In this document: in pieces, positions 59,261 through 61,942 of the stretch
Layout: every line of letters begins with the position of its first letter
Numbering within the stretch: position 1 is the first letter of the stretch
Assembly (NCBI RefSeq): GCF_003342675.1
Contig: NZ_CP031148.1
Location: 682,001 to 746,000, forward strand
Direction: 5' to 3'
Length of the DNA: 64,000 nt
Source of the DNA: Haloplanus rubicundus
GTDB taxonomy: Archaea; Halobacteriota; Halobacteria; Halobacteriales; Haloferacaceae
Position numbers and translations under genes: made by a program
Notes under the pieces: generated by a model
Databases searched by the model: none
Told to the model about the DNA's origin: nothing
The model's input: the letters and a program-made list of their open reading frames with translations, nothing else

Positions 59261-59333
59261 GGGCCGGTGGGGTAGCTTGGTATCCTTCGGCCTTCGGGTG
59301 GCCGTAACCACGATTCAAATTCGTGCCGGCCCA
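59261..59333 (+). tRNA. tRNA-Pro (anticodon CGG)
   Basis: 73 nt fold into a complete cloverleaf. The acceptor stem is GGGCCGG with CCGGCCC and discriminator A59333. The anticodon stem is CGGCC/GGCCG with loop TTCGGGT, giving anticodon CGG at 59295-59297. The T arm is CACGA-TTCAAAT-TCGTG. CCA is not encoded. No intron. Its 3' half is repeated in fragments just downstream. Confidence 0.95.
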
Positions 59334-59597
59334 TTTTCCCCACTTTCAGCCGACGAGCGACGGCCGTCGAGTGGCCGTAACCACGTCCTCGCGAGCGAAG
59401 CGAGCGAGGGCCAGCGAGACCGCAGGTCTCGTGCGATTCAAATTCGTGCCGGCCCACTTTTCCCACCGTTCACCCTCGGGAAACGGTGGGACGACTCTCC
59501 GGTCGAATTTGAATGAGACGAGGAGCGAGCATCGCGAGCGAACTCGGCGTGATTCAAATTCGTGCCGGCCCATGTTCCCCACTTTCAGCCGACGAGC
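59312..59597 (+). repeat. Repeated tRNA-Pro 3' ends (attachment-site scars)
   Basis: A 47-bp segment beginning with the tRNA T-loop and running past its 3' end (59312-59358) recurs at 59551-59597 with one mismatch. A shorter copy of the tRNA end alone (22 bp) lies at 59435-59456. A further piece, the tRNA anticodon-to-T-stem part of 15 nt, is at 59371-59385, separated from the 59435 copy by a 49-bp insert with hairpins. This pattern fits several past integration or excision events at the tRNA gene. Confidence 0.85.
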
Positions 59598-59692: not shown

Positions 59693-59926
59693 ATGGGAAC
59701 GAAGCAGATTCGGGTGAGCGAACGGCTCTACGCTCGGATTCAGAGCGAGAACCGCGAGGGAGAGACGCTCAGCGAGACGCTGGAGCGACTCGTCGGGGGG
59801 CGGTCGCTCCGCGACCTCCGCGGGGTCTTCGACGAAGAGCGGGTGAGCGAGATGCGGAACGCCGTCGAGGCTGCTGAGCGGGAGGATCGCGACGAGGTCC
59901 ACGAGGTCGCGGAGCGCTTCGAATGA
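59693..59926 (+). CDS. vapB: VapB-type antitoxin, second locus
   Basis: 77 residues from ATG 59693. MGTKQIRVSERLYARIQSENREGETLSETLERL is a ribbon-helix-helix region similar in style to the VapB at 20212, followed by an acidic helix. The stop overlaps the start of the vapC remnant. The antitoxin appears intact although its toxin is broken. Confidence 0.82.
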   Translation: MGTKQIRVSERLYARIQSENREGETLSETLERLVGGRSLRDLRGVFDEERVSEMRNAVEAAEREDRDEVHEVAERFE

Positions 59927-60329
59927 TCGTCGATACGAGCTTCGTTCTGGACGTCGTCGACGGTGTCGAGAGCGCGTCACGAAGGAACGGGAACTCGAAG
60001 CCGAGAGCGTCCCGTTGGTGATCCCGTCGATGACCGTGCTGGAACTCTACATCGGCGTCGGGATGGTGGCGAACACCCGTCAAGAGCGACAGATGGTAGA
60101 AGCGGTACTCGATTCCTACCCGCTGGTAGATATGACTCCGAGCATCGCCCGTCGCGCGGGACGGCTCCTCGGGGAACGTCTGGCCGATGCCGACGAGGGT
60201 GATGGGCCCGGAATCGGGAAAGGCGACGCAGCGGTCGCTGCGACCGCGTTGGAGCGAGACGAACCGGTCCTCGCCGGAGACAGTCACTTCGGGAGTGTGC
60301 CCGGCGTCGCTGTCGAGACCTACCGGTGA
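59923..60329 (+). pseudogene. vapC: vapC toxin gene with a frameshift
   Basis: ATG 59923 begins MIVDTSFVLDVVDG with the first PIN aspartate, but the frame ends after 33 codons. Shifting by one base near 59974-59977 (AGCGCGTCAC) restores VTKERELEAESVPLVIPSMTVLELYIGVG and the rest of the PIN domain (GKGDAAVAATALERDEPVLAGDSHFG) to 60329. One lost base explains everything. The downstream part could start at GTG 60015 but would lack the first aspartate. Confidence 0.85.
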
Positions 60330-60398: not shown

Positions 60399-61049
60399 GT
60401 GGCCGACCCGTTCGAGATTCTGGAGGTGGATTCGGAGGCGGACGACGCGGCGATCGACCAGGCGTACCGCCGCCGAGTCATGGAGACCCATCCGGATCAG
60501 GGTGGGTCGGCGCGTGCCTTCCAGCGGGTGAAGGAAGCCTACGAGGCGATCACGGCGATGCGGACCGGCGAGGACGCCCCCGAAGCCGTCGACGACGAGG
60601 AAGACGACGACGGGCACCACGACGCCGGCGCCCGCGTCGAGTATCTCAACTACGAGGTGATCGCGGACCGTGGGTGGTCCATCGACGACGACGGACTCTT
60701 CGCGGCCGCGGCCGACGCCGGACTCGACGCCGAGGACTACGGCGAGTTCCGGGTCGAACCCGGCGAGACGCTGCTCGAAGCCGCCGAAAATCGCGGCTTC
60801 GCCTGGCCCTACGCCTGCCGCGGCGGCGCGTGCGCGAACTGCGCCGTCGCCGTCGTCGAGGGCGAGATGACGGTCCCTATCGATCACGTCCTGTCGAGAG
60901 AGATGACCGAGCGTGGCATCCACCTCTCCTGTATCGGGGCGCCGGCGACGGCCGAGATGCAGGTCGTCTACAACGTCAAACACATGCCGGAACTCGACGA
61001 ACTCCGACTGCCGGCGTATCGGTTCGAGCGAACCCAGTCGGTCGACTAG
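60399..61049 (+). CDS. 2Fe-2S ferredoxin with N-terminal J-domain
   Basis: 216 residues from GTG 60399. Residues 1-55 form a J-domain (DPFEILEVDSEADDAAIDQAYRRRV with the HPD motif in THPDQGG). An acidic linker leads to a haloarchaeal plant-type ferredoxin: VEYLNYEVIADRGW, the three-Cys loop ACRGGACANC and the later LSCIG. The J-domain suggests it recruits DnaK, perhaps for cluster delivery or repair. Its stop shares CTAG with the convergent gene. Confidence 0.9.
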   Translation: MADPFEILEVDSEADDAAIDQAYRRRVMETHPDQGGSARAFQRVKEAYEAITAMRTGEDAPEAVDDEEDDDGHHDAGARVEYLNYEVIADRGWSIDDDGLFAAAADAGLDAEDYGEFRVEPGETLLEAAENRGFAWPYACRGGACANCAVAVVEGEMTVPIDHVLSREMTERGIHLSCIGAPATAEMQVVYNVKHMPELDELRLPAYRFERTQSVD

Positions 61050-61942
61050 CGGCGCCGTCTGCCGAGTAGCGCGACCGCCAGCAGCGCCAGGAGGGCGGCC
61101 ACGACGCCGAAGCCGGGACCCTCGTCGGCCGTCGTGCCGGCGGTGGGCGTCGCCGTGGGTGTCGGTTCGGGCGTCGCCGTGGGTGTCGGTTCGGGCGTCG
61201 CCGTGGGTGTCGCCGTGGGCGTCGGTTCGGGCGTCGCCGTGGGCGTTGTCGTCGGCGCCGCCGTGACCGTGGCCGTCGCCGTCGCCGACGCCGTCGCCAC
61301 CTGTCCACGGACGCGGACCGTCACGGTGCGGTTCCCGGCCTCGATGTTGCTCCCGGACGCGGTGATCCTGTAGATACCCGGCGTGGGATCGGGGATGTCG
61401 ACGGTGATCTGCTGGTCGTTCTCCGTGATCCGAGCGGTCGCTACTTCGGCGCCGGAGGGATCGACGACGGAGACGTCGAGTCGGTCCACGTCGGCGAAGC
61501 TGTATCTGGCCCGAATCGTCAGCCGATCCAAATTCGCCGCGTCGGTCGAGCGGCCGGTCACGTCCTCTTGGCGCTCGTCCCGAAGGACGATGCTGTACAC
61601 CTGTGGCCGAACCACCGTCAGGTCGGCGCGCACGTCGCTATCGTCGGTGGCGTAGTAGGACCCCACCGGGACGCCGTCGAAGCTCGCGTTCGTCGGATCG
61701 ACGGTGAACGACTCCCCGCCGCCGACGGCAGTGAACGTCGTCTCCTCGGTACCGACCGTCCCGTCGCCCGACAGCTGGACCGACGAGATGTCGAGCGTCT
61801 CGCTGACGTAGACACGCACCGGCGGTCGCGTATCCTCGGGCGCGTCGCGCGGTTCACTCACGGCGACGACGGGGAGGGCAACGGCACCGGCCGCGAGGAC
61901 GACCAGCGCGGCGGCCGCGGCGCGTCTCGTATTTCGTGTCAC
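61046..61942 (-). CDS. Secreted surface protein with PGF-CTERM anchor
   Basis: 298 residues. A signal peptide (RRAAAAALVVLAAGAVALPVVA) is followed by beta-rich domains, a Thr/Pro stalk of repeated TPTATPEP units (about residues 222-268), then GPGFGVVAALLALLAVALLGRRRR, the PGF-CTERM signal processed by archaeosortase A. The Thr-rich stalk is probably O-glycosylated. The repeat is length-variable by nature. Function at the cell surface unknown. Confidence 0.88.
   Translation of the reverse strand: MTRNTRRAAAAALVVLAAGAVALPVVAVSEPRDAPEDTRPPVRVYVSETLDISSVQLSGDGTVGTEETTFTAVGGGESFTVDPTNASFDGVPVGSYYATDDSDVRADLTVVRPQVYSIVLRDERQEDVTGRSTDAANLDRLTIRARYSFADVDRLDVSVVDPSGAEVATARITENDQQITVDIPDPTPGIYRITASGSNIEAGNRTVTVRVRGQVATASATATATVTAAPTTTPTATPEPTPTATPTATPEPTPTATPEPTPTATPTAGTTADEGPGFGVVAALLALLAVALLGRRRR

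Follow-up and report, generated by a model that had tools for sequence, protein, structure and literature searches.

The window analysed here is a stretch of 64,000 nucleotides of Haloplanus rubicundus (contig NZ_CP031148.1, positions 682,001 to 746,000, forward strand). In it, a tRNA-Pro(CGG) gene is followed by an array of partial tRNA copies and hairpins, a toxin-antitoxin pair and a DnaJ-ferredoxin fusion gene. The features, in window positions and with the method of assignment in brackets, are as follows.

59261 to 59333, plus strand: tRNA-Pro(CGG), the target gene (ARAGORN); the stretch repeated downstream runs from the T-loop to the 3' end, 59313 to 59333.
59334 to 59358, plus strand: 25-bp flank common to copies 1 and 3 (24/25) and equal to the flank of the empty site in the congener G005 (repeat comparison).
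59361 to 59385, plus strand: displaced copy of the anticodon arm and variable region of the tRNA (23/25), the opening part of unit A (repeat comparison).
59386 to 59434, plus strand: 49-bp insert of two hairpins, exactly 5' of the T-loop of the displaced tRNA half (folding).
59435 to 59456, plus strand: second copy of the tRNA 3' end, exact across 22 nt (repeat comparison).
59462 to 59490, plus strand: hairpin 1 of unit B, CCCACCGTT...AACGGTGGG, 29 bp (folding).
59504 to 59514, minus strand: inverted T-loop copy CGAATTTGAAT, which pairs with the tail copy that follows (inverted-repeat pair and folding).
59515 to 59550, plus strand: hairpin 2 of unit B (folding).
59551 to 59572, plus strand: third copy of the tRNA 3' end, exact across 22 nt; a 46/47 repeat when the flank to 59597 is included (repeat comparison).
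59693 to 60329, plus strand: vapBC-type toxin-antitoxin pair in the variable slot 3' of the array (VapB PF02697; PIN PF01850, frameshifted).
60399 to 61049, plus strand: DnaJ-ferredoxin fusion gene, which marks the conserved distal end of the variable Haloplanus slot (congener comparison).

A preliminary description of this DNA had reported that the tRNA 3' end recurs twice more, one copy matching over 47 bp with its flank, and this was confirmed. Both further copies are exact across 22 nt, and the 47-bp repeat (59312-59358) returns at 59435-59481 (77%) and at 59551-59597 (46/47). The split tRNA half with a 49-bp hairpin insert that it listed was likewise recovered, the former matching the tRNA at 23 of 25 positions and the latter folding into two hairpins, and the inverted T-loop (59504-59514) and the 29-bp hairpin (59462-59490) come in addition. 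The three copies enclose two units. Unit A separates copies 1 and 2 and consists of the displaced anticodon-arm copy and two hairpins; unit B separates copies 2 and 3 and is made up of a hairpin, an inverted T-loop and a second hairpin. Even with 3 mismatches allowed, the window contains the 21-mer ATTCAAATTCGTGCCGGCCCA three times and none of 100 shuffles contains it; in the whole genome, a near-exact 20-mer of the tail is confined to the three window places. As single-stranded DNA, unit B folds better than its shuffles (z = -3.9). No PF00589 integrase lies in the window, in agreement with the earlier account, all 13 matches of the genome falling elsewhere. At the same tRNA gene, an extra tail copy is present in 21 of 110 named genomes, the first copy at a median of 119 bp, and 24 of 28 such copies carry the T-arm allele of the host's own tRNA, several alleles existing. 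The unit A type was found at tRNA-Pro(CGG) of several haloarchaeal families, its 49-bp insert type being likewise seen in families other than that of the window.

Two observations concern the neighbouring genes. The PIN toxin gene of the vapBC pair (59923-60329) switches frame, as a frameshifted pseudogene or through a sequencing error. On the minus strand, 61046-61942 encodes a secreted-type protein in which a long low-complexity PTPTATPEPTPTATP stalk is combined with a hydrophobic anchor at the C-terminus.

For every other tRNA gene detected in the genome, the flank was searched within 450 bp downstream for the gene's own 20-nt tail, with swapped tails and shuffled sequence as controls; the survey drew on retrieved genome stretches. 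The own tail recurred at 20 of 45 tRNAs in the window genome (G000) and at 18 of 40 in the congener G005; swapped tails did so in 6/1900 and 10/1522 cases, respectively, and shuffled sequence gave 0. What lies between the repeats follows a common plan: a gene-free unit of 70 to 130 bp made of a hairpin, an inverted T-loop copy, a further hairpin (in many cases CAGGGAG...CGACCGTGG) and, in direct orientation, a repeat of the tRNA that extends from its T-loop to its last base. Each unit is bordered on both sides by a direct repeat of the tRNA 3' end, and the tRNA is intact. A typical case is tRNA-Glu(TTC), where GGGATTTGAATCAGGGAG-hairpin-CGACCGTGGTTCAAATCCCTGACC stands three times, the last two with a 94-bp period. 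Three genomes supplied 45 distinct units for comparison with their own tRNAs. Identity is about 0.3 at positions -5 to -3, jumps to 0.98 at the T-loop and drops again after the last tRNA base, to 0.29-0.60 in the flank. The hairpin letters that do not stem from tRNA (CAGGGAG...CGACCGTGG) are common to units at unrelated tRNAs. Overall, the units are short, multicopy and dispersed, and encode no integrase.

The T-loop of many tail copies is 8 nt long, one base more than the 7-nt loop (TTCACGAT, TTCACAAT, TTCGTAAT, TTCAAAAT). Such copies lie downstream of tRNAs at the loci L173, L041, L150, L155 and L234, and may represent the site in a locked or worn state. In two different haloarchaea, tRNA-Asp is duplicated, with the genes 2.3 kb (L247) and 0.8 kb (L248) apart, and each gene is followed by its own hairpin unit.

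The fold of the non-tRNA parts of the units covaries, with 27 doubly changed cells versus 8.1 in shuffles. Covariation was also observed between the inverted and the direct T-loop copies, part of which is expected since both sides resemble the same tRNA. A covariance model (R1) was built from 17 hand-picked units of the commonest hairpin type at other tRNA loci of the window genome, the window unit being excluded. R1 returned 22 sites at E < 1e-10 in the window genome, most of these strong matches lying there by construction, since the training units were picked from it. All are at tRNA ends save two, which bear the tRNA-Arg(TCG) tail and lie 18 and 20 kb downstream of tRNA-Arg(TCG). Independent support is provided by the window unit, with unit B detected at E = 8e-4, by the units at C2:2156342 and C2:2158031, and by other genomes. 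R1 covers the other hairpin types (window unit A and those of His, Lys(TTT) and Phe) only partly. Of 60 relatives, 51 gave unit matches with R1, a single genome having as many as 30. In a wider draw, 20 of 24 haloarchaea had units, and none was found by R1 in 124 other members of the phylum. Against Rfam, the units gave chance-level scores only and no family match. Neither exact unit patterns nor the tRNA-Pro tail were found in IMG/VR contigs, and a blastn search of one unit against plasmids and phages gave no hit, the 57-nt query being short and the haloarchaeal records few. Therefore, no autonomous parent is known.

Congeners differ in how many copies they carry at the same tRNA: 3, 0 and 1 at Glu(TTC), 2, 0 and 3 at Phe, and 0, 1 and 0 at Tyr. 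Clean pairs of a filled and an empty site were observed at tRNA-Glu(CTC), where G000 has a 101-bp insert relative to G005, and at Thr(GGT) (133 bp), Arg(TCG) (115 bp) and Pro(TGG) (495 bp), with flanks that align from base 0 to 2. Such pairs record a difference between sites, to which no direction of gain or loss is assigned, and they form a minority, as most G000/G005 pairs (e.g., Tyr, Asp and Gly(TCC)) are unalignable because their flanks differ altogether. Relative to G005, the window array starts and ends at a tail copy and is followed by the same 25-bp flank, the empty site at tRNA-Pro(CGG) matching across these 25 bp only. The units come and go cleanly between relatives and therefore look like undescribed miniature mobile DNA, not like worn-out virus scars.

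Larger elements also use these genes. The preliminary description had suggested that the site may be an active integration hot spot in relatives, and the congeners bear this out: in G007, the slot at tRNA-Pro(CGG) is occupied by a segment of 2.55 kb that encodes a PF00589 integrase of 205 aa and a PIN toxin and ends in the tRNA core ATCGTGCCGGCCCA. In 11 of 12 Haloplanus genomes, the distance from the tRNA to the DnaJ-ferredoxin motif downstream varies between 173 bp and 2.8 kb, so that relatives do not share one arrangement. The vapBC pair of the window slot has a related pair in the G007 island and is absent in G005. At tRNA-Glu(CTC), three congeners carry islands of approximately 2.4, 7 and 51 kb (repeat spacing), whose repeat is 47-57 nt long and starts from the anticodon loop, in contrast to the units of other congeners, which repeat about 23 nt from the T-loop. 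The differing starts indicate that units and islands use different parts of the tRNA. At three islands of the window genome, the units lie outside the island or between segments; at Pro(TGG) and at the tRNA at C2:122749, for instance, they are found on the far side of the island. Units and islands therefore appear to insert independently. Downstream of tRNA-Arg(TCG), a 20-kb array of cargo segments without an integrase is cut by a 13-bp tRNA tail, an att core at which units are exactly positioned.

Some details of these regions are worth recording. The tRNA-Arg(TCG) cargo segments (L245, G000:C2:2138000-2157999, and L246) measure 4.3, 5.4, 1.8, 6.4 and 1.6 kb in direct order, are bounded by conserved stretches of about 240 and 70-90 bp, and carry genes for an ArsP permease and for MarR-like, SelO, NmrA-like and TrmB-like proteins. 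Their end repeat was seen only in Haloplanus, with 8-10 copies in G000, G001, G003 and G006, and the whole resembles a cassette array. At L251 (G000:C2:121500-141400), an intron-containing tRNA at C2:122749, called Met by ARAGORN and probably Trp, is followed by a 13-kb island with a DUF1424 rep gene and a 349-aa integrase, and then by a hairpin unit. On a small contig of the congener G005 (C3:161109-162673), about a dozen tRNA-like genes lie within 1.6 kb; dense tRNA gene clusters of this kind occur in some large viruses or plasmids.

On balance, we think that the window array probably consists of two small mobile elements, non-autonomous and belonging to a haloarchaeal family that resides at tRNA gene ends. 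Underneath this reading lie the observed anatomy, tRNA matching, precise gain or loss, order-wide spread and nesting with islands and cassettes. On insertion, exchange would take place at the T-loop, a natural small dyad with GG/CC flanks, by site-specific recombination. The direct tail copy would preserve the whole tRNA, so that each unit must match its own tRNA and the copy ends at the last tRNA base. The T stem-loop, which has dyad symmetry, is one of three exchange regions of tRNA-targeting integrases (PMC8371274). The units would be moved in trans by a recombinase, probably a tyrosine recombinase, of resident viruses or islands, and this enzyme may recognise a folded single strand. A resident Cas1 as the necessary driver was considered and rejected: the unit-rich genomes G000, G005 and G009 have no PF01867, and G016 and G068 have Cas1 without units.

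Several points weigh against reading the array as mobile elements. No enzyme has been linked to the units, and no unit was found in the viral contigs, plasmids and phages searched; a DNA circle of about 100 bp would recombine only with difficulty in duplex form. Simple transfer by an integrase between tRNAs leaves the shared hairpins with differing tail copies unexplained. Moreover, many copies are tandem duplicates, which homologous recombination alone could make, as with the 94-bp period at Glu(TTC).

We propose more tentatively, and with some doubt, that the units represent a novel class of mobile DNA, re-tailored to whichever target it enters: one hairpin core would land at any tRNA gene and acquire that tRNA's tail, direct and inverted, many tRNA genes being occupied undamaged. 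One may conjecture that the target is duplicated on insertion and that palindrome correction of the inverted copy then provides the core with the new tail. Such an element may work as a folded single strand, by analogy with integron cassettes.

The preliminary description had read the repeats as serial att scars of elements gained and lost more than once. On this view, each repeat would be what is left at one end of an integrated virus or plasmid after its interior had been deleted. The part of that reading which stood is the variable insertion site in Haloplanus. Islands do integrate at these tRNAs, including the integrase island at tRNA-Pro(CGG) of G007; the displaced anticodon-arm copy (59361-59385) looks like the end of an anticodon-loop island, and the vapBC pair persists in the slot. 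The part that found no support is the origin of the repeats as chance remnants of larger elements. Random deletions would not yield the same two-hairpin plan of 70-130 bp at 20/45 tRNAs and in 51/60 genomes across the order, congeners have precise empty sites, and true islands in the same tRNA, as at Glu(CTC), repeat from the anticodon loop and not from the T-loop. We consider such scars unlikely as the source of the array.

Less probable still is a palindrome-driven local duplication, in which template switching at replication and unequal crossing-over would copy the tail and its inverted image without a recombinase. Identical tandem units are indeed common, and the joint change of the inverted and direct T-loop copies is what quasi-palindrome correction would give. 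However, the hairpin letters shared by unrelated tRNA loci cannot derive from the local tRNA, the copy borders coincide with the T-loop and the mature 3' end, and the filled and empty sites differ precisely. Finally, a host RNA or DNA element that functions at tRNA genes, for example in termination, processing or regulation, is very improbable. In its favor, the conserved fold uses T.G pairs on the tRNA-sense strand, and the units follow the tRNA closely on its own strand. Against it, the presence of units at a given tRNA varies between congeners (Glu(TTC), Phe), several haloarchaeal genomes have no units and Rfam gave no match; an RNA switch of the tRNA is disfavored because the presence of units is patchy.

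If the units are mobile elements, nearly half of the tRNA genes of many haloarchaea carry a mobile family that is absent from the searched literature. The units would then be a natural mark of where tRNA-targeting recombinases act, and would explain the misreading of repeats at tRNA genes as island scars. They would also pose the question of how one hairpin core gets the exact tails of many different tRNAs. Because congeners offer precise filled and empty sites, gain and loss can be tested directly in culture.

A description of the units was found neither in a review of archaeal recombinases, nor in the available portion of the Haloquadratum mobile-element survey, nor by full-text literature searches, subscription papers lying outside their reach. 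Among known systems, the tRNA islands of archaeal tyrosine recombinases (SSV, pNOB8, pT26-2 and SNJ2 types) share with the units the insertion at the 3' part of a tRNA, the direct repeat of the tRNA end, the whole tRNA and the tandem occupation of one tRNA. In contrast, the units have no gene, measure 70-130 bp, contain an internal inverted T-loop and two hairpins, occur at almost half of the tRNAs and repeat from the T-loop, unlike the islands mapped here. The MITEs, PATEs and small mobile repeats of Haloquadratum are, in the portion of the survey available (PMC3119063), short, transposase-free, palindromic, present in many copies and presumably moved in trans, like the units. However, those families are there defined by their own ends, with no tie to tRNA, and the units end in a copy of the resident tRNA. 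As to terminal inverted repeats related to a known transposon, which mark a MITE, the inverted repeats of the units are internal and tRNA-derived, and no parent element was found in the viral contigs, plasmids and phages searched. Casposons and mini-casposons, with a Cas1 integrase, resemble the units in target duplication, and insertion at tRNA-like targets has been reported for Methanosarcina mazei (PMC10359463). Nevertheless, the units have no terminal inverted repeats of the casposon kind, and the unit-rich genomes G000, G005 and G009 lack Cas1. Integron cassettes, with their attC sites, would be an analogy for imperfect palindromic sites in interchangeable arrays, as suggested by the A-B-A order in L162 and by the tRNA-Arg(TCG) cargo; unlike in integrons, the site of a unit is the end of a tRNA gene and the array is without an integrase gene. 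Set beside these systems, the units would fall among the non-autonomous site-specific elements, with a fair chance that they form a class of their own.
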